From a virus, in the IMG/VR virus record IMGVR_UViG_3300035698_019872, positions 1 to 23,662 of that record: a DNA stretch of 23,662 nt. One strand, given 5' to 3'. Positions 307-20,513 of the stretch are shown piece after piece. The first letter of the stretch is position 1, and each line of letters opens with the position of its first letter. Made by a program: the position numbers and the translations under genes. The notes under the pieces were generated by a model, which saw nothing but the letters and a program-made list of their open reading frames with translations, ran no database searches and was not told the origin of the DNA.

Positions 307-528
307 TTATTTTTCTGATAACAATATTCTCTTGTCTTTGAGTAAAGTAATATGTGCATTAGTAATATGCTTTGGCAAGTCGCTAACACTATTGTAGATT
401 ATTCCTTTCTTAATATTTTCTTCTAACTCTTTAACACTCATGCTTTCATATGTGTCTATAAGACTGTGAGTAATGCTTCCGTCTGTACTGCCGAATGGTT
501 GCCCAAACAACGAATGTGCTTTTGTCAT
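307..528 (-). CDS. Hypothetical protein, 73 aa
   Basis: A small soluble protein starting at an ATG with a GGAG site 7 nt upstream. It lies 2 bp beyond the stop of the 531-920 gene and before the partial gene at the left edge. The N-terminal third (MTKAHSLFGQPFGS) is Gly/Ser-rich and probably unstructured. The middle (SMSVKELEENIKKGI) looks helical. There are no cysteines, membrane segments or recognisable motifs. The good ribosome binding site and tight operon spacing support it being real. Function is unknown. Confidence 0.65.
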   Translation of the reverse strand: MTKAHSLFGQPFGSTDGSITHSLIDTYESMSVKELEENIKKGIIYNSVSDLPKHITNAHITLLKDKRILLSEK

Positions 529-530
529 AA

Positions 531-920
531 TTAAACTCCTCTCAGTTTCAACTCATTAACATCTTCTCGCAATGAAGTCAATTCATCTTCGTGTCTTTTA
601 TCAAAAAAGACACCCTGTGTTTTTGGATCTTCACTACAACCATTTACATCTGCATCTCCTTGCAATGATGGCGAAAGTTTCGCCAATCCACTTGCAATCT
701 GTTTAGTCTCTGGATCAATCAGTACGGGCGGAACCAATACGCCCAACCTGATAAGATCGTCAATGATATAACTCATAAGGTCACATCTTTTTTGAAGCGC
801 AGTTCTGCTTAATTCTTCAAGCTCTTTCACTTTCAGTTCAAGCCTTTCGAAAGCATCTTTTTCAGAAACCGTTTCCCGTAGAACTTCCGAATAAGCTTCT
901 GCTGTTGTTTTCTTTTTCAT
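531..920 (-). CDS. Hypothetical protein, 129 aa, helical N-terminus
   Basis: The ATG at 920 is preferred over the in-frame TTG at 932, because the AGG at the TTG serves as ribosome binding site 6 nt before ATG 920 and the TTG overlaps the upstream gene's stop. Residues about 1-60 are strongly charged and helical, probably a coiled coil. A short hydrophobic stretch follows (LIRLGVLVPPVLID, about 59-72), then a polar, low-complexity region, and a final charged helix. The hydrophobic stretch is too short and proline-broken for a confident membrane span. It follows the 37-aa membrane protein gene and may be translationally coupled to it. No family is recognised. Confidence 0.65.
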   Translation of the reverse strand: MKKKTTAEAYSEVLRETVSEKDAFERLELKVKELEELSRTALQKRCDLMSYIIDDLIRLGVLVPPVLIDPETKQIASGLAKLSPSLQGDADVNGCSEDPKTQGVFFDKRHEDELTSLREDVNELKLRGV

Positions 921-928
921 TTTATTCC

Positions 929-1042
929 TCAACTTTTAAAGAAATAATATGTTGCTATTCCAGCGAAACAAACTGCACTGATAGACAACAATGCTATTAA
1001 TGTCAATAAAATCTTTTCAAACCAATCGCTATTATTCCACAT
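929..1042 (-). CDS. Small single-span membrane protein, 37 aa
   Basis: Found by reading the minus strand between two larger genes. ATG at 1042, TGA at 931-929. The protein has a short polar N-terminus (MWNNSDWFEK), one hydrophobic helix of about 23 residues (ILLTLIALLSISAVCFAGIA, then TYYFF) and a tiny KS tail. The start overlaps the last codons of the upstream gene by 11 nt with an AGGA about 9 nt before it. The stop overlaps the TTG preceding the next gene. This packing argues for a real coupled gene that fills what would otherwise be a gap. A holin- or superinfection-exclusion-type role is possible, but nothing in the sequence proves it. Confidence 0.6.
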   Translation of the reverse strand: MWNNSDWFEKILLTLIALLSISAVCFAGIATYYFFKS

Positions 1043-1241
1043 TATTCCATCCTATCTGCTTGCTGATTTTAACAAGCTCAATGTTGCTCAATAGTTTCCG
1101 TTTTTCATCAAGCTTCGCTCTATAATATTCTCCAAGCTCGCCTTGAAAGAATAGATCGCCAGAAGGAGCGAATCTCCACTTTGCCATCAACTGCTCATAC
1201 GTTGCTTTATCAATCCATGCTTTCATTTGCTTTTGTGTCAT
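1032..1241 (-). CDS. Small conserved phage protein (KWRFAPSGD...FFQGE...GEYY type), 69 aa
   Basis: The ATG has a good AGGAG site 6 nt upstream, which lies inside the C-terminal codons of the preceding gene (ATGA overlap at 1241-1238). The sequence MKAWIDKATYEQLMAKWRF, followed by APSGDLFFQGELGEYY and a Lys-rich helix ending in SKQIGW, matches from memory a small protein seen in many unrelated phage genomes. I know no assigned function for that family. It has no cysteines or membrane helix. The aromatic-rich core suggests a compact fold. Gene identity as a conserved phage hypothetical is fairly secure; its role is not known. Confidence 0.8.
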   Translation of the reverse strand: MTQKQMKAWIDKATYEQLMAKWRFAPSGDLFFQGELGEYYRAKLDEKRKLLSNIELVKISKQIGWNNVE

Positions 1242-1657
1242 TGCGTTCTCCTTTTCACAATTCTTCTAGGTCTGTCAACATCTATCCATTCTTCTTCTGG
1301 CAACTGTCCATTCTTTATACGCTCAGATTCAATAATACGAATAGCACAATCTACAGCACCTTCATCTTGAGATGGTTCGTCATCAACTTCTCGCATAATA
1401 AACTCAGCCAGCTTTTCTATCTGAGCTTCAAGATGCGATCCGGGTTCAACATCCGCTTCTTCAAGAGGACACTCAACAGGCACATATTCATAACTACAAA
1501 ATAAAATTTGTAAATTAGTTGCATCTCCAGCAATAAAGGATGCACAAGCTCTTATTTTATCTTCTAAATATATTTTACAAATAAGATTATCGCCTAAAGA
1601 TAGTCTATACGGACAATTTATACAGGACTCAATCGTTGTTAGTAGTTGCTTCGCCAT
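1238..1657 (-). CDS. Hypothetical Cys-rich protein, 139 aa, with C-terminal RPRRIVKR motif
   Basis: Start chosen at ATG 1657 (MAKQLLTTIE), with AGGA 6 nt upstream; a longer frame from 1714 would run far into the preceding gene. The N-terminal half carries Cys12, Cys15, Cys27, Cys38, Cys54 and Cys63, with CINC and a later CSYEYVPVECP segment. This suggests a small metal-binding domain, though not a standard zinc ribbon. Residues about 65-110 are acidic and helical. The last residues, RPRRIVKRRTQ (129-139), are one copy of a basic motif shared by five proteins in this arm. The codons of that tail also contain the ribosome binding site of the next gene. Function is unknown. Confidence 0.7.
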   Translation of the reverse strand: MAKQLLTTIESCINCPYRLSLGDNLICKIYLEDKIRACASFIAGDATNLQILFCSYEYVPVECPLEEADVEPGSHLEAQIEKLAEFIMREVDDEPSQDEGAVDCAIRIIESERIKNGQLPEEEWIDVDRPRRIVKRRTQ

Positions 1658-1856
1658 CAGCTTTCCTTTCAAATCCGTCTGGTAAAAAATATGGTTCTGT
1701 AAATTGTATATCAACCACTCTTAAATCTTTTCGTTTCATTATTCTTTCAGTAAACCTAGCTTGACCAACATACGTTGCTTCCATGCCATTGTTAAATATC
1801 AATGTTATGTTTTGCAACGCTCCAACTATCTCTTTTCTAGGGTTTTTCTGTTTCAT
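1629..1856 (-). CDS. Hypothetical protein, 75 aa
   Basis: A small basic protein whose ATG overlaps the stop of the preceding gene in an ATGA arrangement (1856-1853), implying translational coupling; only a weak purine-rich site precedes it. The sequence alternates short beta-like stretches (GALQNITLIFNNGMEATY, LRVVDIQFTEPYF) and ends in a polar tail. Its last 29 nt overlap the start of the next gene. There are no cysteines, membrane helices or recognised motifs. Function is unknown. Confidence 0.6.
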   Translation of the reverse strand: MKQKNPRKEIVGALQNITLIFNNGMEATYVGQARFTERIMKRKDLRVVDIQFTEPYFLPDGFERKADGEATTNND

Positions 1857-2098
1857 TTTTGCTTTCTTATTTTAACAATGCGATTAGGTTTATTTACTTT
1901 CACGTTTTCATTGTTGTTATTCGACTTTATCAATTCTATAATTTCTGTTGTGTACCAAGCGGCTATACAAGATATACAATGTTGGTAACTATGACAGTTT
2001 TCTGTTTCCCATGCTTCAGGAAGAGGACAATCTAAATCATCTCGTAAATCATCTTCAAAATTTGTTTTTAAGAATTCTTCAATCTTATCTTTAAGCAT
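1853..2098 (-). CDS. Hypothetical protein, 81 aa, with C-terminal KPNRIVKIR motif
   Basis: ATG 2098 is preferred to the in-frame TTG at 2110, because a GAGAG-type site lies just before it. The N-terminus is an acidic helix (MLKDKIEEFLKTNFEDDLRD). A Cys/His cluster follows (Cys24, Cys35, His36, His40, Cys41, Cys44), compatible with metal binding. A further helix and an Asn-rich linker (SNNNNENVKVN) lead to the basic end KPNRIVKIRKQK (70-81). This end is nearly identical to that of the protein at 5595-6191, although nothing else in the two proteins is alike. The gene overlaps both neighbours by a few bases. Function is unknown. Confidence 0.7.
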   Translation of the reverse strand: MLKDKIEEFLKTNFEDDLRDDLDCPLPEAWETENCHSYQHCISCIAAWYTTEIIELIKSNNNNENVKVNKPNRIVKIRKQK

Positions 2099-2285
2099 GT
2101 TTTCTCTCAACTTTGCTATGTTTGCTCAAAATGCCGAAAATTGCCTTAAAATTGCCCTTTTCAGCCATATTTTGCAGTTTTTTGACCCAAAATGGGCTGA
2201 AATCAACGTATTTATACAGTTTTTCGTCAATTTTAACGTCTAAATCACCGTTTTTATAGTATGCTCCTACTGATATTCGTACCAT
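2091..2285 (-). CDS. Hypothetical protein, 64 aa
   Basis: ATG 2285 (MVRISVGAYY) is chosen over the upstream TTG because AAAGGGG sits about 6 nt before it. It overlaps the end of the sigma-region-4-like gene by 19 nt and the next gene by 8 nt. The protein starts with short beta-like strands (VRISVGAYYKNGDLDVKI) and ends with basic helices (FWVKKLQNMAEKGNFKAIFG, then HSKVERKHA). It lacks cysteines and membrane segments. The coding strand contains several near-repeats of GGCAATTTT in this area. Function is unknown. Confidence 0.6.
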   Translation of the reverse strand: MVRISVGAYYKNGDLDVKIDEKLYKYVDFSPFWVKKLQNMAEKGNFKAIFGILSKHSKVERKHA

Positions 2286-2779
2286 TTGTTGCCCCTTTCT
2301 GTCACCCAAGAGACTGTTCTGCCATATCTTTTGCGCTGATAAATCCTTTGCATGTTATTATAACGCCAATGACCGCATTTTTGGCAGTAGTGGTGATACT
2401 TTTTATCTATATCCAACTTGTTTATCAGGGTTCCACAAAGAGGACAAACCACTTTGTCATTAGCCGGATCAGTTTTAATGGCATATTCATAATACATATC
2501 ATTGTGAACATTGTTTTTCTTGAGTTCCCTAAGAAATTCTGCTTCGTGCGCTTTCAAAGCGATTCGAAGCTTCCTGAGAGCTTTGATTTCTGTTTGGCGT
2601 ATTGCCTCAGTTGTCAAGTTAAGTTCTCTGGCAATGCTCTCAAGCGTCTTGTATGACGTTCCAATGGCGAAGCGAGATTTAATAACGAATTGTTGCTTAA
2701 AAGTTAATCTTGTTTCAAAAATCTTGAACAGCTTGCTTCTAAATTCATCATAAATAAGTTCGTCTAAAATTGTAGTCAT
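2267..2779 (-). CDS. Sigma-70 region-4-like HTH protein with zinc ribbon, 170 aa
   Basis: Probably a phage transcription regulator. Residues about 24-75 read like sigma region 4: LTFKQQFVIKSRFAIG, then a helix-turn-helix with TLESIARELNLTTEAIRQTE and the closing KALRKLR, typical of the -35-recognising helices of sigma factors. A zinc ribbon follows (Cys112-x2-Cys115 and Cys132-x2-Cys135), then a basic C-terminus. No sigma region 2 is present, so it is not a complete sigma factor. It may be an adaptor, an anti-sigma-like protein or a DNA-binding activator. The start has an AAGGAG site 7 nt upstream, inside the end of the previous gene (ATGA overlap). The N-terminal half aligns with the protein at 3208-3726. 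Confidence 0.75.
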   Translation of the reverse strand: MTTILDELIYDEFRSKLFKIFETRLTFKQQFVIKSRFAIGTSYKTLESIARELNLTTEAIRQTEIKALRKLRIALKAHEAEFLRELKKNNVHNDMYYEYAIKTDPANDKVVCPLCGTLINKLDIDKKYHHYCQKCGHWRYNNMQRIYQRKRYGRTVSWVTERGNKWYEYQ

Positions 2780-3207
2780 TTATTTTCTCCTTGATTTCTC
2801 ATCTTGACAATTCGTCTTGGTCTTTCGTTAAACGTTGTACCATCACATGATCTTAACAGTTTTTCAAACTTAACAATTCTTTCGTCAATGGTTGAATCAG
2901 GATCAAATTGCATTGTGTAGTCAGTTCTTGGTTCTGGCTTTGTTTTTTTTAGTTCTGGAACTAATATATAAACTGGTTGACCATCTTTTTGTAATTTAAG
3001 TTTCTCAATAGCTTTTTTCATTTCCTTGTTTATTCTTTTTGATACTTGAAAATTGTCATGAGCTTGATTTGCAATTTTATCAGAGAACAAACAATCATCT
3101 CTCAAAGCCTCAGTCTCTTTTTTAAGATCTGAAAACTTATGCTTCCAATAACCAATCCAAATTATAAAAAGAAAAATTATAAATAACAATGGTATAATTG
3201 TAGTCAT
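2776..3207 (-). CDS. Membrane-anchored coiled-coil protein, 143 aa, with C-terminal RPRRIVKM motif
   Basis: The N-terminus is one strong hydrophobic helix (IIPLLFIIFLFIIWIGY, about residues 4-20). It is followed by a basic WKHK, which by the positive-inside rule puts the rest of the protein in the cytoplasm. Residues about 25-75 are charged and helical. A Pro-rich segment (about 85-95) and another helix lead to RPRRIVKMRNQ (129-139) and a GENK end. The motif is the same as in four other genes of this arm. The ATG directly abuts the stop of the preceding gene. It lies between the two sigma-region-4-like genes, and its last codons supply the ribosome binding site of the next one. Function is unknown. 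Confidence 0.7.
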   Translation of the reverse strand: MTTIIPLLFIIFLFIIWIGYWKHKFSDLKKETEALRDDCLFSDKIANQAHDNFQVSKRINKEMKKAIEKLKLQKDGQPVYILVPELKKTKPEPRTDYTMQFDPDSTIDERIVKFEKLLRSCDGTTFNERPRRIVKMRNQGENK

Positions 3208-3726
3208 TTAACCACTCTTCTTTCTTAAAATTTTCCAAAGATGCCTTTCTCTCCAAGAATCATCGACAACAGTCTCAACTGCTCTTGGCACTTCTTGCAT
3301 TCTTCTATACATTTTTTCTTCATCATAATACTCTTCTGCTCGCTCTTTAGCTTTTTTTGTTGCGTTTCTTTTATTAACTTCTTTCATTGCTTCTTTTTCA
3401 CCCTTTTTTAATTCAAGCTTCGTTGGTTCTATAATGAAATTTTTACTTCTAAAATTATTCAATGTAGCAATTTCTAAAATATCATGTTCTTGTCTTTTGA
3501 AAAATCTGTTTAATTTACAATAAATTTTTGCCTCGATTATTTGAATGGTTGTAGAACTACATTTTAAAAATTTAGCAATACTTGTTTTTGTACCAAACTT
3601 TTTTTCAGCCGAATGTAATAGTTTAAAAACAAGCGATTCTCGTTTTGGAAGCTTAGTGTTGACAAATAAATTCAACTCATCAAAAAAATCACTGTAAACC
3701 ATTTTGCTCAAAGTATCATTTTCCAT
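3208..3726 (-). CDS. Divergent sigma-region-4-like protein, 172 aa
   Basis: Start set at ATG 3726 (MENDTLSKMV), which has an AGGGG site 7-8 nt upstream; the longer frame to 3765 overlaps the preceding gene more deeply. Residues about 9-76 line up without large gaps with residues about 8-75 of the protein at 2267-2779. Examples are MVYSDFFDELNLFVNTKLPK against LIYDEFRSKLFKIFETRLTF, and FLKCSSTTIQIIEAKIYCKL against ELNLTTEAIRQTEIKALRKL. The helix-turn-helix is therefore probably homologous but diverged. The C-terminal half differs: a long, charged Lys/Glu helix and no zinc ribbon. A DNA-binding or RNA-polymerase-binding regulator is the likely role; the target is unknown. Confidence 0.6.
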   Translation of the reverse strand: MENDTLSKMVYSDFFDELNLFVNTKLPKRESLVFKLLHSAEKKFGTKTSIAKFLKCSSTTIQIIEAKIYCKLNRFFKRQEHDILEIATLNNFRSKNFIIEPTKLELKKGEKEAMKEVNKRNATKKAKERAEEYYDEEKMYRRMQEVPRAVETVVDDSWRERHLWKILRKKSG

Positions 3727-3907
3727 TATTTTTCCCCTTTCCAGTGACTTCTCCAGTTTCTTCACTCCATCTTGTTTTGCATTTTGGGCAAAGCCATTCT
3801 GTAATCATCTTTCGTTCCAAAGAAAAGACGCCTCTCAACTTCGTTGTCTTAGAATTATTTTTAGACCAAACTGCATTGCAGATTGGACATTTATTTCTCT
3901 TTATCAT
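3716..3907 (-). CDS. Small zinc-ribbon protein, 63 aa
   Basis: ATG 3907 (MIKRNKCPIC) is chosen, with GGAG 11 nt upstream; a TTG at 3916 is too close to that site. The sequence has two CxxC knuckles, Cys7-Pro-Ile-Cys10 and Cys40-Pro-Lys-Cys43, about 30 residues apart. This is the layout of a zinc ribbon. A basic Lys/Gly tail (GEVTGKGKNNGK) follows. It overlaps the genes on both sides (17 and 11 nt). Such ribbons in phage early regions usually bind nucleic acid or RNA polymerase, but nothing here shows the partner. Confidence 0.7.
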   Translation of the reverse strand: MIKRNKCPICNAVWSKNNSKTTKLRGVFSLERKMITEWLCPKCKTRWSEETGEVTGKGKNNGK

Positions 3908-4511
3908 AATAGTCAATCTCCATTTTCACTTTAAGCGGAAGGACGAGTGGATTTTTCATCGTATTAATATAATCACCTTGTTGTGTTGTAAAATTATATA
4001 TTTCATTATTTTGTGTGCTTTGCTGTTTATTGTGAGTTGTGTTTCCCTTTATGCAAACATCGCCTAAGTATTCAAAGAAGTCGTTTGGATTGAGATCGTT
4101 GAACTTGACATGATTTAATTTTCGGTTGTCTGTTGTTTCAGTGAGATGCGGAATGGTTTCTTTAAGAGAAACTTTTTCTCTTATTTTGACTACTCTTTTA
4201 GGTTTAGATTCTTCCGATTCTTCTTCAACTGATTCGAGCCAGCTTACAGCAAAGTAATTGACAGCTCCAGTTTTAGAATCAGCCACTGTATAAAAATCTT
4301 CTATTTCGCCATTGACTAAATTTTTTGCACGATCTTTTTTATTTTTTATAAGTTGTATATTACCGCATTGACTAATTTTCGATTGAAACCATCTTGACGG
4401 TTGTAAAACTTCGAAATCAAGACGAGAATCAAGAATGACTTCAAAAGGAATGTTTTTTATCTCGTCAAGAGTTTTGACTCTTACTTTATCTCCTGCTTGG
4501 AACTTCGCCAT
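3891..4511 (-). CDS. Hypothetical protein, 206 aa, SH3-like N-terminus and internal KPKRVVKIR motif
   Basis: First gene after the promoter at 4546-4574; ATG 4511 follows a GGAAGG site about 10 nt upstream. The N-terminus (FQAGDKVRVKTLDEI, and later YFAVSWLESV at about 86-95) looks like a small SH3/KOW-type barrel. The GDKVRV opening resembles VGDRVQIRSYEE in the protein at 5595-6191. An acidic linker (EEESEES) leads to KPKRVVKIREK at 103-113. Here the motif is not terminal: another 93 polar residues, Asn/Thr/Gln-rich, follow. One reading is that a gene once ended after the motif and was later extended. Function is unknown. Confidence 0.7.
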   Translation of the reverse strand: MAKFQAGDKVRVKTLDEIKNIPFEVILDSRLDFEVLQPSRWFQSKISQCGNIQLIKNKKDRAKNLVNGEIEDFYTVADSKTGAVNYFAVSWLESVEEESEESKPKRVVKIREKVSLKETIPHLTETTDNRKLNHVKFNDLNPNDFFEYLGDVCIKGNTTHNKQQSTQNNEIYNFTTQQGDYINTMKNPLVLPLKVKMEIDYYDKEK

Positions 4512-4545
4512 AAATCACCAACCTTCCTTTTCTCAATTTGACTTA

Positions 4546-4574
4546 ATTTAACCATAAATTGTTGCGGTTGTCAA
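4546..4574 (-). promoter_or_regulatory. Leftward sigma-70-type promoter
   Basis: Read on the minus strand: TTGACA (4574-4569), 17-nt spacer, TTAAAT (4551-4546), with TGG directly upstream of the -10 (extended -10). It lies in the only sizeable gap (about 60 bp) of this part of the arm and points at the 3891-4511 gene. The -35 overlaps the stop region of the gene at 4571-5071. Confidence 0.6.
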
Positions 4575-5071
4575 TCCTTTTTTTTCTTTTTCTTTGGGTT
4601 TTTTGTAGTCTTCTTCTTTGTTGGCTTCTTCTTCTTAACTAATTTTCTCTTTTCTACTTTCAAAATCTTTCGTGCTAAATCCATACCAGCAGTAAACATA
4701 TCTAAATTTTTATCATTAAAAATCCATTCAAAATCTATTTCGCCGTCTTCTTCTGTTACATCAAATATCATTTTCTTTGACCACTCGACAAGCTCTTCAG
4801 GAATTTCTCTTCTTGGAAAAGTTTCTATAAATAACCTAGCTGTATCAAGAACATAATCTTTATTTGCATTATATTTGTTTTCATAATCATTTAAATAAGA
4901 TAGAAGAACAATTGCTTCTTCGTCTGTCCACTCAAACTTTTCTTCTATATCTATTTTTATATTAGCTTCTTTTTCTACTTTCTCTTTTAGCTCTGTTCCA
5001 TAGAAAGCGGCTGCAAGCTTTATGTTTTCAAAGAGGTCGTGTAGCGAAATAGGAAGGTCAGGCGCTTTCAT
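4571..5071 (-). CDS. Hypothetical protein, 166 aa, with polylysine tail
   Basis: Starts at ATG 5071, overlapping the TGA of the kinase gene (ATGA), so translation is probably coupled. Residues about 1-140 are acidic and mainly helical with no known motif. The last 28 or so residues are almost entirely Lys, Thr and Pro (VKKKKPTKKKTTKNPKKKK). This sharp acidic-to-basic change suggests a folded domain with a disordered nucleic-acid-binding tail. The tail is simple-sequence, and the coding strand is an A-rich run, so its length could vary between relatives. Location next to the dNMP kinase may only reflect operon order. Function is unknown. Confidence 0.7.
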   Translation of the reverse strand: MKAPDLPISLHDLFENIKLAAAFYGTELKEKVEKEANIKIDIEEKFEWTDEEAIVLLSYLNDYENKYNANKDYVLDTARLFIETFPRREIPEELVEWSKKMIFDVTEEDGEIDFEWIFNDKNLDMFTAGMDLARKILKVEKRKLVKKKKPTKKKTTKNPKKKKKKD

Positions 5072-5598
5072 ATTTTCAAATCCTTAATAATAGAATCAGC
5101 GTATTCAGTTAAGTCAGATATTTCTTTGTCGTTGGTAATCAAAAAATCTTCTTTAATGTTAAGAAGCTCACTCTCGCTCTTGTGAGCGCTATTGACATCG
5201 TTATAACTTCTGCCATGCATTTTTACAATGATGCCGTTATGTGCCTTTATATAAGCTGCTTCGTTAAGAAAACGGACATCATCAATTATAAAATTGTTTG
5301 TAATGTTATCCGTGTTTAAACTGCGCTTCTTTCTTTCGGTTTCCCAATGGTTTATCCAAGCATTATCTCCAACGCATTCTCTAACAACTTCTGTTCCCAA
5401 GAGTTGAAGAAGTGTTCTGCCAAGTTTGTCTTTCTCGCCATTCCATCCTAACATCTTAGCAAACTCTTTTAATTTATAAGCAAAAGGGATGATGTCAGAA
5501 TAGACAAGATGTTCTTCGAGAAGTCTGTTGGCAAGAATATTTGCAAATGTTGTTTTTCCAGATCCGGCAAGTCCTGTAATTCCAATTATTTCAATCAT
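5068..5598 (-). CDS. Deoxynucleoside monophosphate kinase-like protein
   Basis: Probably phosphorylates dNMPs to dNDPs for phage DNA synthesis. The P-loop is near the N-terminus (GITGLAGSGKTT, residues 6-17). A segment LGRTLLQLLGTEVVRE, followed by AWINHW, matches the substrate-binding region of the T4 gp1 / DNMK family as I know it. FIIDDVRFLNEA supplies the second acidic/strand motif and NEA turn typical of that family. Its 176 residues are within the range of phage dNMP kinases, although shorter than T4 gp1. Start and stop each overlap a neighbour by ATGA. It works naturally with the nucleotidase at 6181-6741 and the deaminase at 8565-9002 as a nucleotide-pool module. Confidence 0.85.
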   Translation of the reverse strand: MIEIIGITGLAGSGKTTFANILANRLLEEHLVYSDIIPFAYKLKEFAKMLGWNGEKDKLGRTLLQLLGTEVVRECVGDNAWINHWETERKKRSLNTDNITNNFIIDDVRFLNEAAYIKAHNGIIVKMHGRSYNDVNSAHKSESELLNIKEDFLITNDKEISDLTEYADSIIKDLKI

Positions 5599-6191
5599 TT
5601 TATTTTCCTTATTTTAACTATCCTATTAGGCTTGATCTCTTTGGATTTCGGTACGAAATCAAGAGGTATAAGCCAATCCATATGCCAATTCCAATCATTA
5701 TTTTTCAACCCTATAGTTCTTAATTTAGTTGGTTTATGGCGAAAATGTAAGAGGCTTGTTGTTTCACTTACAGAAGAACAAAATTCCATCATTTGTGACA
5801 TTATAGATTCATATCCATTTTTGTTATTAGTGATAGCCTCATTATGATCAGTAATTGTTTTTACATTTTCTTCATAAGATCTTATTTGAACTCTATCCCC
5901 AACTTGAGGAATCCACTCATCATAACTAATCTCATCATCTGGATGCCACTGTATAACTTTATACAAAGCATCCAACGCTTCTTGTTCTGTTTTGAATTGT
6001 TTAAGTGTTGAAATATAAAAAGAAAATTTATCATCAATAGACAAATATAATCTAAAAAATCTAGCTGAATCAGTAATACAAAATTCTAATTTCCCTATAT
6101 CTTGTTTCGTTATAGGTTTATAAAGAGCATACGCTCTCTGTCCAGCTAATTTAACAATCTCAAATTCACCGTAAGGCGTGTCAACTTTCAT
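5595..6191 (-). CDS. Hypothetical protein, 198 aa, SH3-like segment and C-terminal KPNRIVKIR motif
   Basis: ATG 6191 (MKVDTPYGEF) has GGAG 6 nt upstream; the TTG at 6203 is rejected. The first 80 or so residues look like a mixed alpha/beta domain ending in FKTEQEALDALYKVIQ. The middle contains IPQVGDRVQIRSYEE, resembling the SH3/KOW-like opening of the protein at 3891-4511, with the barrel apparently completed near WHMDWLIPLDFV after a long insertion. The very end is KPNRIVKIRKIK (187-198), one of the five shared basic motifs. ATGA overlap with the kinase gene. Function is unknown; a small domain that positions the basic tail is conceivable. Confidence 0.7.
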   Translation of the reverse strand: MKVDTPYGEFEIVKLAGQRAYALYKPITKQDIGKLEFCITDSARFFRLYLSIDDKFSFYISTLKQFKTEQEALDALYKVIQWHPDDEISYDEWIPQVGDRVQIRSYEENVKTITDHNEAITNNKNGYESIMSQMMEFCSSVSETTSLLHFRHKPTKLRTIGLKNNDWNWHMDWLIPLDFVPKSKEIKPNRIVKIRKIK

Positions 6192-6741
6192 AAATCTCTC
6201 CAATTATTTCAATCAATGCCTTTTCTACATATCCAACTTTGCCTTCTTTGATGTGTTTGTTCTTGTTCCAAAGCTGAGGAAACAATATTCCATATCCGCC
6301 AGCTAGTTCAAACTTTTCTATCTTCCTGTCACTATCGTCTATCAGTATTGCTCTAGGCGAAGCGCAAAAATGTTTGCAATTGCCTATTAAAAACTTATCA
6401 TCATAATAAAAGTCAGGAAGATTGTTTTTGATCCAATTCACTTTACCAGATGCTGTTATCTCTCGCACCCTTCCTTCTAAATAATGAGGAAAGGCTGTAA
6501 GCAAACATGTATCAAACTTAGAAGTAAGCTCAACAAGCTCATCGCATTCCTCTGTCTTTGGCATAGAAGTCCAAAAGTCAAAATCTAAACTTGTCCAAAG
6601 ATATTCGTCTGAGATATCGAGAACCTTGTCAATGTTATAAGTTCCTTCGGGCCAATCACCATAGAAGCCAAACTTACTTCTAAGAGCTTCTACGAAATCG
6701 CAACAAACTCCATCTAAGTCTAAAAATATTTTATATTTCAT
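6181..6741 (-). CDS. 5'(3')-deoxyribonucleotidase-like HAD phosphatase
   Basis: Start set at ATG 6741 (MKYKIFLDLDGV), since the HAD motif then sits right at the N-terminus as usual. FLDLDGVCCDF gives motif I with Asp8 (nucleophile) and Asp10 (acid/base). LLTAFPHY supplies the Ser/Thr motif II position, and ILIDDSDRKIEKFELAGG is motif III/IV with paired aspartates. This pattern fits the 5'-nucleotidase, deoxy (NT5C-like) branch of the HAD superfamily, which dephosphorylates dNMPs. It sits beside a dNMP kinase, so the two may tune deoxynucleotide pools. Other small HAD phosphatases are possible. Overlaps the PnuC-like gene by 11 nt. Confidence 0.8.
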   Translation of the reverse strand: MKYKIFLDLDGVCCDFVEALRSKFGFYGDWPEGTYNIDKVLDISDEYLWTSLDFDFWTSMPKTEECDELVELTSKFDTCLLTAFPHYLEGRVREITASGKVNWIKNNLPDFYYDDKFLIGNCKHFCASPRAILIDDSDRKIEKFELAGGYGILFPQLWNKNKHIKEGKVGYVEKALIEIIGEIYES

Positions 6742-6949
6742 TTTTTGTCCATTCCCGCAAACCATAGATTGAAGTTAACAAGCAAAAACCCCACCAGATT
6801 ACTAATGAGTAGCGCTCGTTTAAACATTCAACTATCATCCAAGAAAGATTTGTTGCAATCCATATTACAAAACACCATTTGTTTTTCTTGATGTTTAAGA
6901 TTCCACCAACCATTGCAACAACACAAATTATCCAAGAAATCGTTTCCAT
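6731..6949 (-). CDS. Short PnuC-like membrane protein, 72 aa
   Basis: A three-helix membrane protein: helix 1 at about 3-18 (ISWIICVVAMVGGILN), helix 2 at about 24-42 and helix 3 at about 48-62, separated by short loops. The pattern GGILNIKKNKWCFVIWIATN followed by YGLREW resembles one half-unit of PnuC nicotinamide-riboside transporters, as found in short phage versions. Full PnuC is about three times longer, so a lone unit would have to oligomerise or act differently. The ATG has AGG 6 nt upstream, and the promoter at 6968-6995 lies just before it. It heads the operon with the nucleotidase. The PnuC assignment is moderate; membrane location is secure. Confidence 0.6.
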   Translation of the reverse strand: METISWIICVVAMVGGILNIKKNKWCFVIWIATNLSWMIVECLNERYSLVIWWGFCLLTSIYGLREWTKNEI

Positions 6950-6967
6950 ACTTTACCTTTCGAAATG

Positions 6968-6995
6968 ATTAAACCATAAATTTCAGGAAAGTCAA
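6968..6995 (-). promoter_or_regulatory. Leftward sigma-70-type promoter
   Basis: Minus strand: TTGACT (6995-6990), 16-nt spacer, TTTAAT (6973-6968), preceded by TGG. The ATGGTTTAAT core is identical to that of the rightward promoter at 9596-9623. The -35 lies in a GTCAAGTCAAAA sequence (6991-7002, plus strand) that recurs at 9125-9136. It drives the PnuC-like gene and the nucleotide genes beyond. Confidence 0.65.
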
Positions 6996-7009
6996 GTCAA
7001 AAAGAAAGT

Positions 7010-7876
7010 TTATGAGCAAACTTCGATGTATGGAACAATAACTTTTTGATTATTATGAATTTCTTGCTCTATTGTAACTTCAACTCTAGGCATCCTCAGC
7101 ACTGATGGACGAAGCATACTCTCTGTAGCATAATTACCATGATCTTCTAAAAAATTCTTCTGAAATGAGCCACAACGAATTAGATGAGTCTCGTGTTGTT
7201 TTATATCTTCTTTATACTCAGAAAAGATTTTAGCAACCGGAGCTGTTATCTGTTGGTGAGCATGTCCAGCAAAAACAACATGCATGTCAGGAAACTTGTT
7301 GGCAGCTCTTTCAAGTTCGTTCAAATTTGAACCTATATACATTGTTGCGGTTTTTCCGTGAAAGAGAAGAAACTTTAAATCAACATACCTGTTTGTTGTA
7401 GTGAAAACTCTAACAATGTTAACACTAACAGCTCCGCCATATTTTGCTTTTAAAATGTTAAGAAAAAATTCATCAATGGATATATTTAAATGGTCTAACC
7501 AAGCAGAGTGATTTCCTTGAACTCCTGAAAAAGTACAACCTTTTAAAAACTCAAGTCTTTTTGCTAGACTTTCTGCTTCTTCCATAAACAACTGGACAAG
7601 CTTTCTAAAGTCATTTCCAGCAACCTTCAATGTATCAAGGCGCATTTGATCTGTTTTTCTCATGTCGTTGAAAATATCACCTAAGAAGAAAGCGTAATGA
7701 TCTCCTGCGTTAAATGAATCTTTCCATCTTTTTATATAAGCAGCCAATGCTTCTTCGCAAAACATATCACTAAAAGAGTGGAAATCTCCAAGCTCATGAA
7801 AAGTTAATTTAGTTCCTATTTTAACTCGTCTGATCGCATGGTTAAATTTCGTAAAGATCTTTTCTCGGTATCGCAT
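7010..7876 (-). CDS. Calcineurin-like metallophosphoesterase, 288 aa
   Basis: All the usual metal-binding motifs are present in order: GDFH (Asp31, His33), LGDIFND (Asp67), QGNHSAW (Asn122, His123), LLFHGK (His173) and AGHAHQ (His205, His207). It is therefore a di-metal phosphoesterase of the calcineurin-like superfamily. Phage members include Mre11/SbcD-like nucleases and 2',3'-cyclic phosphatases; the sequence alone does not say which. The ATG at 7876 is well supported by AGGAG 6 nt upstream, even though it overlaps the end of the preceding gene by 61 nt. Its stop lies just before the promoter at 6968-6995, closing one leftward operon. Confidence 0.85.
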   Translation of the reverse strand: MRYREKIFTKFNHAIRRVKIGTKLTFHELGDFHSFSDMFCEEALAAYIKRWKDSFNAGDHYAFFLGDIFNDMRKTDQMRLDTLKVAGNDFRKLVQLFMEEAESLAKRLEFLKGCTFSGVQGNHSAWLDHLNISIDEFFLNILKAKYGGAVSVNIVRVFTTTNRYVDLKFLLFHGKTATMYIGSNLNELERAANKFPDMHVVFAGHAHQQITAPVAKIFSEYKEDIKQHETHLIRCGSFQKNFLEDHGNYATESMLRPSVLRMPRVEVTIEQEIHNNQKVIVPYIEVCS

Positions 7877-8331
7877 GTGTTACTCCTAAATAAAATGGAA
7901 TTTATATATCCCTTATTTCGTATAGCTATCAAAGCTGCTCGAACTGTTTTCCGAGTAACTTTAAAAAATTTTGCAACTTGCCGTTCCGAGATATGTCTGT
8001 CAAAACAAGCATAATACTCTTTATAAAAATCATAAACTCGCTTTTGCTTATCTGTAAGCGGATATAAGTTAGAAATATCTTCTTCAAAAAAGAATCTTAG
8101 TTTTAAATGATTGTTTTCTGTATCTTTTAAATAATCTGGTACAAAGCCAAATTTTAACTTAGCGTTATATCTTCTTCCTTGTTCTAATCTTTTTTTGGGA
8201 GTAGAATATTCTCTAACTCTTTTTTTTTGGCATTCCCTGCAATAATCTTGTAAACCATCTTTCCTAGTTCTATTTTTATTAAAAGCAGAACGTGGTTTGA
8301 ATATGCAATTAGGATTAGCACACTTAATCAT
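7816..8331 (-). CDS. Zinc-finger plus helix-turn-helix DNA-binding protein, 171 aa
   Basis: Start set at ATG 8331, which overlaps the TGA of the zinc-ribbon gene (ATGA). The protein then begins at once with its zinc domain: MIKCANPNC (Cys4, Cys9), the phage-typical SAFNKNRTRKDGLQDYC segment, and Cys31-x2-Cys34. The other in-frame ATG at 8382 would add 17 residues inside the upstream gene. The C-terminal half has LTDKQKRVYDFYKEYY, then RQVAKFFKVTRKTVRAALIA (about 127-146), a helix-turn-helix, probably winged. The N-terminal module is common ahead of HNH nucleases and phage regulators, but no HNH motif is present. Likely a regulator or replication accessory. The end overlaps the phosphoesterase gene by 61 nt. 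Confidence 0.65.
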   Translation of the reverse strand: MIKCANPNCIFKPRSAFNKNRTRKDGLQDYCRECQKKRVREYSTPKKRLEQGRRYNAKLKFGFVPDYLKDTENNHLKLRFFFEEDISNLYPLTDKQKRVYDFYKEYYACFDRHISERQVAKFFKVTRKTVRAALIAIRNKGYINSILFRSNTCDTEKRSLRNLTMRSDELK

Positions 8332-8492
8332 TTCTTCTTTCGTGATTTTTTTCGCCTGTCTTTTATCTCTTCTTGCGCCCATGTATTATTCCTACAATTA
8401 GGACAACCTTCGTAATCTCCAACGTTCCATTCGTATGTTTTTCCACAATTCCAACAATAGAAGACTCTTGGCTTTCTTCGATGTTTCGCCAT
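8328..8492 (-). CDS. Small zinc-ribbon protein, 54 aa
   Basis: Found by reading the minus strand between the promoter at 8521-8548 and the next gene. ATG 8492 has GGAG 7 nt upstream. The protein starts with a basic arm (MAKHRRKPRVF), has a zinc ribbon with Cys13-Trp-Asn-Cys16 and Cys30-Pro-Asn-Cys33, and ends in a basic tail (KDRRKKSRKKK). The TGA (8330-8328) overlaps the ATG of the next gene, giving a coupled pair of zinc proteins. The basic arms suggest nucleic-acid binding. Exact role unknown. Confidence 0.75.
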   Translation of the reverse strand: MAKHRRKPRVFYCWNCGKTYEWNVGDYEGCPNCRNNTWAQEEIKDRRKKSRKKK

Positions 8493-8520
8493 GTCGTTTC
8501 TCCTTGATAAACATAGCTTT

Positions 8521-8548
8521 ATTATACACTAACATCAAAAAATTACAA
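8521..8548 (-). promoter_or_regulatory. Leftward promoter with consensus -10
   Basis: Minus strand: TTGTAA (8548-8543), 16-nt spacer, TATAAT (8526-8521). It lies in the gap between the deaminase stop and the zinc-ribbon gene, about 30 nt before ATG 8492. The -10 is perfect and the -35 matches 4 of 6; there is no TGn at the usual extended position. Confidence 0.55.
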
Positions 8549-8564
8549 GACAAAAAATCCATTT

Positions 8565-9002
8565 TTATTTTATAAGTCTAACTTTCACTCCAGCTTCTTT
8601 AAACATCTTTTTAGAAATGTCTATACTTGACATCCAGCGTTTAGGAGCCTTGTTTTTTTCAACTATAACTTCAGTAATTCCTGCTTGGATGATTGCTCTA
8701 GCACAATCTGAACAAGGAAAGAGCGTTACATAAATTTTACAGCCTTTTGTGGCGATGCCATTTCTGGCCGAAGATGCAATTACATTAAGCTCTGCATGAG
8801 TAAAGTAAGCATACTTGTCAGGTCTTTCATGGCGCTCAGGAATATCCTTTACACCTCTCGGCAAGCCATTGTAGCCAACAGCTCGGATATTGTTATCCGA
8901 ATCGGCTATAACAGCGCCAACCTGAGTTGACTTATCTTCCGATCTAGTTGCGAATACTCTTGCAACTTCGATAAAAGTCTTGTCCCATGACTCTTGATTC
9001 AT
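8565..9002 (-). CDS. dCMP deaminase / ComEB-like cytidine deaminase family, 145 aa
   Basis: A zinc-dependent deaminase with THAELNVI (His69, Glu71 proton shuttle) and FPCSDCARAI (Cys97, Cys100), the classic HAE...PCxxC set. The context MNQESWDKTFIEVARVFATR, SEDKSTQVGAVI and YNGLPRGV is characteristic of the dCMP deaminase/ComEB branch, which makes dUMP for thymidylate synthesis. A longer frame starts at 9032, but that ATG overlaps the -10 of the promoter at 9031-9058. ATG 9002 has an AGGAG site 7 nt upstream and is therefore the start. It is the first gene of the leftward arm. No thymidylate synthase is seen in the window. Confidence 0.88.
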   Translation of the reverse strand: MNQESWDKTFIEVARVFATRSEDKSTQVGAVIADSDNNIRAVGYNGLPRGVKDIPERHERPDKYAYFTHAELNVIASSARNGIATKGCKIYVTLFPCSDCARAIIQAGITEVIVEKNKAPKRWMSSIDISKKMFKEAGVKVRLIK

Positions 9003-9030
9003 CAGTTTCTCCTGTTCCAGTTTTGCAACC

Positions 9031-9058
9031 ATTGTACCCTAAAAAATTGATTTGTCAA
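9031..9058 (-). promoter_or_regulatory. Leftward promoter of the early arm
   Basis: Minus strand: TTGACA (9058-9053), 16-nt spacer, TACAAT (9036-9031). The predicted transcript start is about 9024, leaving a short leader with AGGAG before ATG 9002. This promoter rules out the in-frame ATG at 9032 as a start for its own transcript. Confidence 0.7.
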
Positions 9059-10781: not shown

Positions 10782-11138
10782 ATGCCAACCTTAGAAAAAG
10801 AAGTTGAAGTGATAAAAACACCGTTAGACTGGATGTTCGAAGAACTTAAAGACGCTCTTGGCGAAGAATGGGCTGATAAGTTTTTCGCTGAACTTGAAGA
10901 GTTGCAGATTGTATCTGGTAATGATTTCAAAGCGATCCTGCGAAAAACCGCAGAGTCGCTTTCTTATTACGCTATGATTTTGAAAGATGGTGATACGTTA
11001 GAAGTTGTAAAAGACTTTGAGTTACTTCTTGGATTAAAAGGCAAGTGTGATATTAGCAACAAAAAAATTCTAGTACAGTATCAGCATCTTGTTTTGGCTA
11101 TTGTGCATCTTGTGATGCAGGAAGTTTTCAACGAATGA
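10782..11138 (+). CDS. Hypothetical protein upstream of terminase, 118 aa
   Basis: ATG 10782 (MPTLEKEVEV) is chosen. The frame is open to a TTG at 10764, but that lies inside the promoter. No Shine-Dalgarno sequence precedes 10782, and the promoter at 10748-10775 should start transcription at or within a base or two of this ATG, so translation may be leaderless. The protein is acidic and helical throughout (PLDWMFEELKDALGEEWADK...). It has no zinc motif and ends in a hydrophobic helix (LVLAIVHLVMQEVF). Its position two genes before the large terminase is where a small terminase subunit often lies, but it shows no obvious DNA-binding helix-turn-helix. Function is unknown. Confidence 0.65.
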   Translation: MPTLEKEVEVIKTPLDWMFEELKDALGEEWADKFFAELEELQIVSGNDFKAILRKTAESLSYYAMILKDGDTLEVVKDFELLLGLKGKCDISNKKILVQYQHLVLAIVHLVMQEVFNE

Positions 11139-11365
11139 AATATGCTGTTAGGTTAAACGCTGTTTGTGAGCTTTGTGGAGTTAATCATGGCTTCTTGACT
11201 CATCAACATCGGATAATCATAGCAGACAAAGCTTCGCTGCCTATCATGGAAAGATTTTTGAAATTTCAATATAATATTGTCGAGGTTACAGACAAAGATT
11301 TAGGACGATTTGAGAGAGAGCAGATTGGGATTGTAGATTTCGTAGAACTTCTTAAATTACTTTAA
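11135..11365 (+). CDS. Hypothetical protein, 76 aa
   Basis: Begins in an ATGA overlap with the preceding gene. The N-terminus has CELCGVNHGF...HQH, a Cys-x2-Cys and several histidines that could hold a metal (Cys11, Cys14, His18, His23, His25). The rest is a small alpha/beta segment ending in FVELLKLL. It ends 15 bp before the terminase gene. No family recognised; packaging or regulation are both possible from location only. Confidence 0.6.
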   Translation: MKYAVRLNAVCELCGVNHGFLTHQHRIIIADKASLPIMERFLKFQYNIVEVTDKDLGRFEREQIGIVDFVELLKLL

Positions 11366-11380
11366 TCTGAGGCTTACCTA

Positions 11381-13417
11381 ATGGCAAAAAAGAAAGTTAC
11401 ATTAACCAAAGATGGTTTTGTTGTTCATGCTAGTGCTGAAAGCAAAGCTAAAAAAGTTAAGAAGATAATTCAAGAAGTAGAGGCTCAAGGACGCTGTGCT
11501 TTTATAAGAGATAATGGCAAGCGATGCAAACTTGAGAGTTCGTCTAATTCTATTTTTTGTGAGCGTCATAACAAGACACTTATTCATGATTCAACTCGCA
11601 AACCCGTTCCTTTTGACTTGTATGACGAAGTAATCAAAGAGTTTAAGCTTATTAAGAACGGTATTAATTTTAGCTTAGATGAATATCCTCATATCGTTCC
11701 TATTTTTCATGATAAACATCCAGACATAGTTATTATTAAATCAGCTCAATGTGGCGTTACTGAATATGCTGGCATCAGAGCGTTAATTTCTTCGAAAAAA
11801 ATTAATGGTTTGTCGATAATATATACCTTTCCCTCTAAAGATTTAGCATCGATATTTTCAAAGCGAAGAATTGATTTACTCAAGCGTGAGAATCCACAAT
11901 TGTTTAAAGTTTATGATAAAAATGGTAAAATACGTCAGCATTATGATTCTATTTATGAGCGACATATTGGGGACTCTTATTTAGCTCTTGCAGGAGCATG
12001 GGCTGAACAACAGGCTATTTCAATTCCTGCTGACTTCTTGATTCATGACGAAGTTGACTTTTCTAAAGATGATGTTGTCAGTTTGTTTCGTTCAAGGCTA
12101 GGTAACTCTGATTGGAAGTGGCGGTTGATGTTTTCAACTCCCACTTATCCTGAGCAAGGGATTCACAAGCATTTCTTAGAGTCAGATCAACATCATTGGT
12201 GGTATATATGCGAACATTGTGGTCATGAATTTAAATTGTGTTGCTCTTTTCCAGAAGTGATTCACAAAAACGAAGCAGAGCAATATTATTTTGGTTGTCC
12301 TTCTTGTCATAAAGAAATAAACAGAAAAAAGGGATTTTATAAACCAGATAATTATGGTGCTTTGCGTAGAGGGTATCATATTTCTAAAATTTCAGCGCCG
12401 AGAGTTTCGGCGAATGAAATAATGGAAGATAAAGAACATTATGCAATGGAAAAAGATTTCTATAACTTTACGCTTGGTATGCCCTACGTAGGTTTGGAAG
12501 ACAAGCTTACTAGAGGGCAACTGGAAGCTTGTGAAGATGGACGCTACCACTTATCTTGGAAAGACAAAGGCGTTGTGTTAGGAGTCGATCAAGGCGGCAA
12601 CGATTTGCATATAGTTGGGCTTAAAATACTCGAAGATAAATGTCTTCAGGTTGTTTATGTTGATAGATACGTTGGCGAGCGATGCTGGCATGATTTAGAA
12701 ATTTTAATGAATCAACTTGGTGTTGTTCGTTGTGTTGTTGATGGTATGCCAGATGGGCATAAAGCAAGAGAGTTTCAGAAAAAATATAAAGGCATAGTTT
12801 ATTTAAATTTTTATCAGCAATTTAGAAAAGCAGAAGGCATTGTTTGGAATGCTGATAAAGCTATTGTGAATTCTGATAGAACAATGACGCTTGATGATTT
12901 AACAAATAAAATAAGAGACAAAAAGATTGTTTTGCCGATAACATCTAAACAAGAAATGGAGCGTTTTAAACTTCATTTGCTTTCTTTGACAAGACAGAAA
13001 GTTGTTAAGGATGGTTCTACTTCTTTTGCATATAAATCAGTAAGAGAAGACCACTATGCTCATGCTTTGAATTATGCTTTGATTGCTGGTAGCAAGTTGC
13101 AGCCATCATTTTTTAAAGTAAAGTATTTTAATAATAAAGAAGTTGTAAAAGAAGGCAGATATATTGAGCAAGTGATTGATGTATTTGCGAAGCTTGTATT
13201 TTTCGAAAAGCTTGCAATTGAAGATATTATTCAATATCGATGTGATAGGTCGAATGGCAAGTTAGTTGAGAATATGGATTTTTCTAAAAATAAACGAATT
13301 ATTTTTTATAAGATGGAACAAAAGTTTACTGTTGAAAACATGTTAGCTACTGTTGCCAACGTGACAGCAATAGAAGCTAGAATGCAGTTTGTAGATGAAG
13401 AAATTTTAGAACTTTAA
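11381..13417 (+). CDS. terL: Terminase large subunit, GpA-like, with extra N-terminal zinc knuckle
   Basis: The packaging ATPase-nuclease that drives DNA into the prohead. Residues 39-63 form a zinc-knuckle-like module (Cys39, GKRC49, FC60xxH63) not normally part of terminases. The ATPase has a deviant Walker A, KSAQCGVTE (120-128), Walker B FLIHDEVD (219-226) and the coupling motif FSTPT (251-255). A Cys-rich insert (Cys277, Cys280, Cys287, Cys288, Cys306, Cys309) is the zinc region typical of the lambda gpA group. The RNase H-like nuclease shows Asp403 (GVDQGG), Asp454 (CVVDGMPD) and Asp557 in REDHYAHAL. About 100 C-terminal residues after the nuclease have no known match. ATG 11381 follows GAGG. 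The portal gene begins 14 bp downstream. Confidence 0.92.
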   Translation: MAKKKVTLTKDGFVVHASAESKAKKVKKIIQEVEAQGRCAFIRDNGKRCKLESSSNSIFCERHNKTLIHDSTRKPVPFDLYDEVIKEFKLIKNGINFSLDEYPHIVPIFHDKHPDIVIIKSAQCGVTEYAGIRALISSKKINGLSIIYTFPSKDLASIFSKRRIDLLKRENPQLFKVYDKNGKIRQHYDSIYERHIGDSYLALAGAWAEQQAISIPADFLIHDEVDFSKDDVVSLFRSRLGNSDWKWRLMFSTPTYPEQGIHKHFLESDQHHWWYICEHCGHEFKLCCSFPEVIHKNEAEQYYFGCPSCHKEINRKKGFYKPDNYGALRRGYHISKISAPRVSANEIMEDKEHYAMEKDFYNFTLGMPYVGLEDKLTRGQLEACEDGRYHLSWKDKGVVLGVDQGGNDLHIVGLKILEDKCLQVVYVDRYVGERCWHDLEILMNQLGVVRCVVDGMPDGHKAREFQKKYKGIVYLNFYQQFRKAEGIVWNADKAIVNSDRTMTLDDLTNKIRDKKIVLPITSKQEMERFKLHLLSLTRQKVVKDGSTSFAYKSVREDHYAHALNYALIAGSKLQPSFFKVKYFNNKEVVKEGRYIEQVIDVFAKLVFFEKLAIEDIIQYRCDRSNGKLVENMDFSKNKRIIFYKMEQKFTVENMLATVANVTAIEARMQFVDEEILEL

Positions 13418-13430
13418 AGGATAAACAATT

Positions 13431-14759
13431 ATGGCTAAAAGTAAAAATCCAAGAGGTGAGCAGCTTCCGGTTAAAAAAACTTTTAAAGTTATTGAACCGA
13501 TTACAAGAAAAGCTTATGCTCCTTCTGCTGTAACTAGAGCAAAAAATTTAAAAACCGTTAATTCCAAAGCGCTTTATTATAATATTTACAGAAAGCATCC
13601 GTGGTTTAGAGCGTTTGTTACCAAACTTGCTAGAATAGTGTCGAATACTAAATGGGGAATTGTTTATGTTGGCGAAGGCGAACCAGATGAAACTTCGAAA
13701 ACTCAGATAAGAAAGTTTTTTGCTTATCCTAATCCGTATGAATCTTTTTGCGACATTCTTTACAAGACTACAATTCAACTCAAGATATTTAATACTGCTT
13801 ATTGGGAAGTAGTAAAAGATGAAAAGAATGTTCCGGTAGACTTTTACACACTTGATGGCAATATTGTTGTTAAGGTTGACAAGCATGGTTTTCCAGAACG
13901 AATTGCTTATATTCAAAAAGTAGGAAAAAACGAAGCTAAATTTTCCTATGATGAAATAATTAGGTTTGTTGTTCCTGATCCTCAAAGTAATTTAGACCCT
14001 AGCTCTGATATGGAAGCGCTTGAAAAGACTTTGTTGCTTGATATTAACGCAATGAATCTTAATCATAGCAAACAGAAGAATGGCGTTAGGTCTGGCAAAG
14101 CATTTATTTTCAAACCAGAGATAAGTCCTGAGCAGATGAAAAGAAATGAAGACGAGATACATAATTTAGCTGGTGGAGTTTCTGGTGCATTTTCTGCATT
14201 TTTAGCTCTTCAAGGCGATTTGACTGTGCAAGATCTTAAATTTGAAGAAGCTGGCATGGAGCAGAAAGAGCTTAGAGAATATTGTCGGGATGAGATTTCT
14301 GCTGTTACTGGAGTTCCTGTTGCCAAGATGGGACTAAAAAACGCTGACTTAAAAGAAGGTGAATATTTAACCAAGACTTTCTTTATTGAAGATGTTTGGC
14401 CTCTGCTTCAATTGACGCAGAGTACAATAAATCGTTATTTTGAGTATATTGGACTTTTGGATTATGAATTTAGGTTTGAGCCGCAGCCTTCAAGAGATTA
14501 TAGAGAAATAGCAAGATTCATTGATGTTCTTAAGAAGTATGGTGTTATTTCTGTCAACGAAGCTAGAGAGTTGGCTGGTTTATCTCCTGTAACTGGTGGC
14601 GATGACTTGTTTGTTATTATGAAAAGTGGCAATATTATTATTGTTGATGATGTAGAGAATGAAATTGCCAAGTTTATTCCTAGCGAACCTACTTCTGATG
14701 AACCAGAACCAGAAGAAGACGAAAAAGTAGAAGATGATGAAAAAGACGAAGATGAATAA
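13431..14759 (+). CDS. Portal protein, HK97-type
   Basis: Forms the dodecameric ring at the capsid vertex through which DNA passes. The family pattern is clear: YNIYRKHPWFRAFVTKLARIV near the N-terminus, PNPYESFCDILYKTTIQLKI with YWEVVKD, the stalk/crown region with LRE[Y]CRDEISAVTGVPVAKMG, and the later GEYLTKTFFIEDVWPLL. DYREIARFIDVLKKYGVISVNEARELAGLSP is the usual C-terminal helix pair before the tail. The final 35 residues are highly acidic (EPEEDEKVEDDEKDEDE), a feature often found at portal C-termini. Its 442 residues are normal for the family. It follows the terminase as expected; the next promoter starts 28 bp after its stop. Confidence 0.92.
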   Translation: MAKSKNPRGEQLPVKKTFKVIEPITRKAYAPSAVTRAKNLKTVNSKALYYNIYRKHPWFRAFVTKLARIVSNTKWGIVYVGEGEPDETSKTQIRKFFAYPNPYESFCDILYKTTIQLKIFNTAYWEVVKDEKNVPVDFYTLDGNIVVKVDKHGFPERIAYIQKVGKNEAKFSYDEIIRFVVPDPQSNLDPSSDMEALEKTLLLDINAMNLNHSKQKNGVRSGKAFIFKPEISPEQMKRNEDEIHNLAGGVSGAFSAFLALQGDLTVQDLKFEEAGMEQKELREYCRDEISAVTGVPVAKMGLKNADLKEGEYLTKTFFIEDVWPLLQLTQSTINRYFEYIGLLDYEFRFEPQPSRDYREIARFIDVLKKYGVISVNEARELAGLSPVTGGDDLFVIMKSGNIIIVDDVENEIAKFIPSEPTSDEPEPEEDEKVEDDEKDEDE

Positions 14760-14787
14760 AAAATGTAAAAAAAATAAATTTTTGCTA

Positions 14788-14815
14788 TTGACAAAAAAAT
14801 AATTTATGATAGAAT
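14788..14815 (+). promoter_or_regulatory. Rightward promoter of the capsid unit
   Basis: TTGACA (14788-14793), 16-nt spacer, TAGAAT (14810-14815), with TGA upstream of the -10 as an extended element. Transcription would start near 14822, about 100 nt before ATG 14923. With the terminator at 17717-17759 it brackets the protease/scaffold and capsid genes. Confidence 0.7.
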
Positions 14816-14922
14816 ACTTGTAGAAATATAATTTTTGTGATTTAGCTGATTAATCATTTCTGACGATTTGCGCAATTCTTAAAAACATTTTTTTTAAAAA
14901 ACAGTTTTCAAAGGCGAATCTT

Positions 14923-16341: not shown

Positions 16342-16379
16342 TAACGTATTATTGTATTTTTTAATAAAGGAAATAAAAG

Positions 16380-20498: not shown

Positions 20499-20513
20499 TT
20501 GAAAGGATATACA

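Follow-up and report, generated by a model that had tools for sequence, protein, structure and literature searches.

We analysed a 23.7-kb virus fragment from IMG/VR (record IMGVR_UViG_3300035698_019872, positions 1 to 23,662; the whole stretch is called the window here), in which five proteins share a basic nine-residue peptide, [KR]P[NRK]R[IV]VKxR, referred to below as the tag. The window contains a leftward block of small genes (307..9032, minus strand), which holds all five tags, and a rightward head module that begins at ~9.9 kb. The leftward block encodes a dCMP deaminase, a 5'-deoxynucleotidase, a dNMP kinase and a sigma-70 region-4-like protein as well as endonuclease VII-like and metallophosphoesterase-like proteins. 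Judging from gene content and strand alone, this block of tagged genes is probably early. Within the head module, the terminase, the portal, a protease/scaffold-like protein and the major capsid protein are encoded at 11381..17702 (plus strand); they bear no tag and identify the relatives G011, G007, G013 and G014 of the window.

An earlier note on this DNA had reported the motif on five proteins, in four of them near the C-terminus. A six-frame scan of the window recovered exactly these five copies, all on the minus strand and in five genes of the leftward block, and added none. Four are terminal, i.e., RPRRIVKRR (1247-1273), KPNRIVKIR (1865-1891), RPRRIVKMR (2797-2823) and a second KPNRIVKIR (5607-5633), which lie 2, 3, 6 and 3 residues from the C-terminus, respectively. 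The fifth, KPKRVVKIR (4179-4205), is internal and sits 95 residues from the C-terminus, at the end of the first domain of its protein.

The carriers of the tag, all encoded on the minus strand, differ in size and architecture. Tagged protein 1 (1238..1714) contains cysteines and comprises 158 amino acids (aa) when read from a TTG start at 1714, the ATG at 1657 being the likelier start. Over residues 96-134 it is similar to phrog_20553 and to a segment repeated in Gordonia phage proteins. We considered the latter for a test of the tag and discarded them, as only a segment within these larger proteins matches protein 1. Tagged protein 2 (1853..2110, 85 aa; ATG at 2098 likelier) is a small, cysteine-containing protein of no family. 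Tagged protein 3 (2776..3207, 143 aa), likewise of no significant family, is built from an N-terminal hydrophobic anchor, basic residues, a helical region and the tag. Basic residues flanking a hydrophobic anchor mark the cytoplasmic side (positive-inside rule); since such residues follow the N-terminal hydrophobic stretch of protein 3, its C-terminal side, and with it the tag, is probably cytoplasmic. Tagged protein 4 (3891..4511, 206 aa) consists of an N-terminal domain ending in the tag and a second segment. Residues 130-198 weakly match the stand-alone small phage families phrog_8365 and phrog_1648 (E about 0.01), which suggests a fusion: the tag of protein 4 may close a first domain to which a second protein was subsequently joined. 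For tagged protein 5 (5595..6203, 202 aa; ATG at 6191 likelier), no family was found. Searches of Pfam, PHROGs and NCBIfam assigned no function to the tagged proteins, and single-sequence AlphaFold models, calculated without an alignment, reached pLDDT values of only 37 and 42. Among the labels given to these proteins earlier, 'Cys-rich' and 'membrane-anchored' can be read from the sequence, while 'SH3-like' is accompanied by no Pfam match. Without the tag, the five proteins show no significant mutual similarity, in agreement with the earlier description of the carriers as otherwise different.

The tag stands out clearly from the remaining proteome of the window. A profile derived from the five copies scores these at 26.8-30.1 bits and the best other 9-mer of the window at 8.3 bits, and the strict pattern was recovered in 0 of 2000 shuffled window proteomes. 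We furthermore employed a pattern-independent test, defined as the number of proteins with a similar 9-mer inside the last 25 residues. The window yielded three partners. Not one of 100 shuffles reached this number, and the control stretches, taken from T4, phage K, SPO1, Jayan, SSU5, LE4 and distant IMG/VR relatives, all stayed below two. Across the five copies, positions 4 and 9 are always arginine and position 7 is always lysine; P2 and V6 are likewise invariant. Under a charge-only model, the probability of obtaining any invariant K/R choice at positions 4, 7 and 9 in five copies is 0.002.

Single-protein scans of IMG/VR with the terminase or with tagged protein 5 returned no close relatives of the window. 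Through profiles of the capsid protein and the terminase we obtained a clade that comprises G011/L018 (capsid 71%), G007/L013, G013 (88.6 kb), G014 (68.8 kb), near-duplicates and L068. Its members have the head module in common with the window, and the early genes of G013 and G014 are unrelated to those of the window; tblastn of the leftward genes of the window against the relatives' stretches compared gave no match for any of them. The tag analysis operates on small samples, and gene calls in the relatives are mechanical. Intra-genome comparison of G013 revealed three unrelated proteins with the ends RKRKVVRRKK, RRRKVIRRKD and KRRKIIRRKK, which correspond to the pattern RK[VI][VI]RRK; the carriers are a DUF3150 protein, a 67-aa protein and a 211-aa protein. 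Their codons are scrambled (4 of 17 same-residue pairs identical), and such sharing arose in 2 of 100 shuffles in the pattern-independent test. The DUF3150 orthologue of G014, 50% identical overall to that of G013, retains a tag, KRRIVRKK, and in both genomes the tagged DUF3150 protein adjoins an AAA ATPase. G014 further bears RRIIRRK on the gene preceding the DUF3150 gene and KKKKVIKKKKK on a small head-module protein, so that its versions are looser than those of G013. The window, G013 and G014 share the core basic-[IV][IV]-basic, with K and R fixed differently per genome: the K/R choice of G013 (K-[VI][VI]-R-R-K) is the reverse of that of the window around the same two beta-branched residues. 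Tags were more similar within genomes than between them (2 of 5000 permutations), a comparison biased by the copies having been picked by within-genome similarity. No tag was seen in the fragments L018 and L013, which have the head module in common. The terminase of L018 begins with AQRRRIIKKLG, and a NADAR-domain protein of G014 (L043:3818-4336) has a basic KKKKKVKRRK stretch near its end.

The comparison of the five window copies at the nucleotide level separates the peptide from the DNA encoding it. Differences at codon positions 1, 2 and 3 number 10, 16 and 49, and of the 65 codon pairs that encode the same residue 31 are identical, where independent draws from the codon usage of the window would give 27.1. 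The upstream flanks show 20-40% identity, as random sequence does. Because synonymous codons are randomised and the flanks unrelated, selection on the peptide, and not on the DNA, a ribosome-binding site or a recent copy, is strongly supported by the sequences, as the earlier note had argued; the same applies to G013. A nucleotide-level element that incidentally encodes the peptide, such as a Shine-Dalgarno sequence, an RNA structure or an operator, would be expected to conserve the bases at synonymous positions, and the tag does not. It could draw on the AGG/AGA codons, which can serve as Shine-Dalgarno sequence, and on the genes with a terminal copy, four of four of which end in ATGA. However, the GGAG of copy 3 is located past the tag, no start codon follows the internal copy, and in G013 one tagged gene is followed, after its stop, by a separate AAAGGAG, while another has no immediate downstream gene. 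We therefore regard such an element as very improbable. Least probable of all is that the copies arose by chance or by a recent duplication of one gene end into other genes. Basic residues are indeed frequent in low-GC phages, yet neither the 2000 shuffles nor the 100 of the pattern-independent test reproduced the tag, and the flanks are random and the synonymous sites saturated. The random flanks, the randomised codons and the lack of relatedness between the proteins once the tag is removed make recent copying unlikely, and equally an operator, an RNA structure or a Shine-Dalgarno constraint. The ATGA overlap with the next gene is seen at the ends 1238, 1853, 2776 and 5595; a short overlap of similar kind (5068/5071) also follows an untagged gene. 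An operator-like inverted repeat over one copy (CCTAAT...) was dropped, as it is absent from the other copies.

Scans for the exact tag returned 6 matches to KPxRIVKIR and one to RPRRIVK[IM]R in IMG/VR, and 69 to KPxRIVKIR in GTDB genomes. The translated contexts of the matches examined in both databases were chance-like, one lying antisense to a tail sheath gene, and the 6 matches to KPxRIVKIR are the only ones in all of IMG/VR, which counts against chance as the origin of the copies in the window. Only 2 of the 69 GTDB matches lie near the end of a called open reading frame; both have S for the last R, and one also lacks R4. These scans, which may omit records very near the window, gave no further C-terminal occurrence of the exact tag in either database. 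The earlier note had named the rate of occurrence in other proteomes as a check on its idea, and this outcome speaks against chance. Our literature search found no description of such a tag.

We propose, with a probability of about 0.5, that the nine-residue peptide is a short linear docking tag for one common putative cytoplasmic partner. This partner, either a phage-encoded hub or a host factor, would recognise the tag, which is mostly C-terminal on several unrelated, probably early, phage proteins, sequence-specifically in the host cytoplasm, and these accessory proteins would thereby be recruited to one place. Two observations make a docking tag the most fitting explanation: the identities of K, R and P stay constant within the genome, even though a single base change converts K into R, and the relatives bear genome-specific variants. 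The same short peptide on unrelated proteins, under selection at the peptide level, as found here and also in G013, is characteristic of short linear docking motifs. The earlier suggestion of a common docking tag is upheld in this respect, while none of the partner classes it listed (DNA, RNA, RNA polymerase, membrane or a hub) is singled out. We infer recognition by a single partner, a cytoplasmic site and co-evolution of tag and partner, the latter since the consensus is tight within a genome and K/R identities are swapped between genomes. More tentatively, this lineage might use a genome-specific recruitment code, in which each phage has its own basic-[IV][IV]-basic terminal tag on a changing set of accessory proteins, read by a co-evolving phage-encoded hub, and in which new genes join by gaining nine codons.

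Several points weigh against the docking tag. Neither the single-protein scans of IMG/VR nor tblastn against the relatives' stretches compared yielded close relatives of the early block. The patterns of G013 and G014 were noticed post hoc, and G014 taken by itself lacks significance, its sharing being reached in 74 of 100 shuffles. Moreover, several proteins of G014 and L068, including the large terminase, start with Lys-rich KKI/KKV runs (L043:9878-10186 and 10935-13049; L046:5656-6723; L068:4594-4899 and 5986-8052), which suits a non-specific basic tail. Together with that of L018, these runs may either be plain basic tails or correspond to the tag at the opposite end of the protein. A generic basic tail, which would bind nucleic acid or an anionic surface (nucleoid, mRNA, ribosome or membrane) by charge and without a specific partner, is the explanation we rank second, though we consider it rather unlikely. 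Every variant of the tag is strongly basic, G014 and L068 have Lys-rich tails at the N- or C-terminus of several proteins, the terminase among them, and head proteins of the window bear AT-hook-like tails. Charge does not readily account for three features, namely the constancy of P2, V6 and the K/R identities in the window against a background of randomised synonymous codons, the form of the tag as a fixed nine-residue unit and not a variable Lys-rich run, and the lack of tails of intermediate score (27 versus 8 bits). With K and R fixed in a genome-specific manner around a shared core, the pattern is more in keeping with a short linear motif that co-evolves with a single partner than with charge alone. 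AT-hooks and Lys-rich DNA-binding tails are short basic terminal peptides; the tag differs from these in that its [IV]V pair is invariant and its K/R identities do not change, and the R-G-R-P core of the AT-hook is absent from all five copies.

A stability or processing signal common to short-lived early proteins, for instance a basic degron at the C-terminus or a shield against such a degron, would suit the terminal position and the small accessory carriers. However, 95 residues follow the internal copy, and we know of no bacterial C-terminal degron of this basic type, which makes such a signal improbable. Somewhat less doubtful, but still unlikely, is that the C-terminal peptide binds the scaffold or the inner shell, so that the proteins would be packaged and ejected into the next host cell, by analogy to the internal proteins of T4. 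In T4, short terminal tags on divergent small proteins do this (PMC9026906, PMC9391042), and encapsulins, which are related to HK97-type capsids, use C-terminal peptides of about 10 residues after flexible linkers (PMC8229669). Moreover, the tag-bearing genomes have the head module in common, and the protease/scaffold-like protein (14923-16341) is very acidic. Against packaging stand the membrane anchor of one tagged protein, the location of the tagged genes of the window in a block on the strand opposite the head genes, the tagged DUF3150 protein of G013 and G014, which lies beside an AAA ATPase and is not an obvious virion protein, and the absence of a tag from the fragments L018 and L013 despite the same head module.

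By analogy, the nearest known kinds of the proposed docking tag would be the capsid-targeting sequences (CTS) of T4 and the cargo peptides of encapsulins. The former are N-terminal propeptides that are cut off by the prohead protease and have the prohead core as partner, and other proteins of related phages carry CTS-like sequences (PMC9026906). Like these, the tag is a short terminal peptide of ~10 residues on divergent small phage proteins, which in T4 is read by one partner assembly (PMC9026906). Unlike these, it lies 2-6 residues from the C-terminus, with one internal copy, is strongly basic and has one membrane-anchored carrier. The cargo peptides of encapsulins are C-terminal, ~10 residues long, present on unrelated proteins and bound by one shell protein (PMC8229669). 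The tag shares the terminal position, the length and the unrelated carriers, but it differs in sequence and composition, and its carriers are phage accessory proteins. No encapsulin shell gene was matched among the window proteins scanned, the window being a fragment; its HK97-type protein is the major capsid protein of the phage. The jumbo phages of the Chimalliviridae also sort several of their own proteins to one place, as proposed for the tag. There, import into the phage nucleus is selective and relies on a surface region, with no conserved linear or terminal signal found (PMC11087766). This import is therefore no close parallel, and the phages of the present analysis are much smaller, the window being a 24-kb fragment and the relatives lying on 69-89 kb contigs.

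Most early phage proteins are without known function. A shared terminal tag groups unrelated early proteins by destination and predicts new members from sequence alone, and the tag peptide offers a bait for the common putative partner. If one partner were confirmed, the tag would reveal a general route by which phages connect recently gained accessory genes to a single assembly, and, if true, it might serve as a portable targeting tag.

Among the tagged genes, 2267-2779 (minus strand) encodes a sigma-70 region-4 protein with a zinc-ribbon-like end and 3208-3765 (minus strand) a second, weaker sigma-like protein (phrog_351); both are possible candidates for phage transcription factors. The major capsid protein (16380-17702, plus strand, as are all following genes) shows 32% identity over 95% of its length to that of the Leptospira phages LE3 and LE4, in which no tag was found despite this match. 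Scanning GTDB with the capsid protein turned up neither a prophage nor a host. The protein encoded 5' of the capsid gene (14923-16341) has a PEPEV repeat in its very acidic middle and a Pfam match to an acidic repetitive protein. Two acidic head-module proteins (17780-18352 and 20499-20903) have AT-hook-like basic tails at their ends, KRKRGRPKKKKKK and KKRGRKKKIVKEDK, and their orthologues in the relatives bear Lys-rich terminal tails as well. Finally, the genes 20921-22333 and 22348-23136 are adjoining paralogues with similar N-terminal halves, the first of which seems to have a repeated C-terminal domain.

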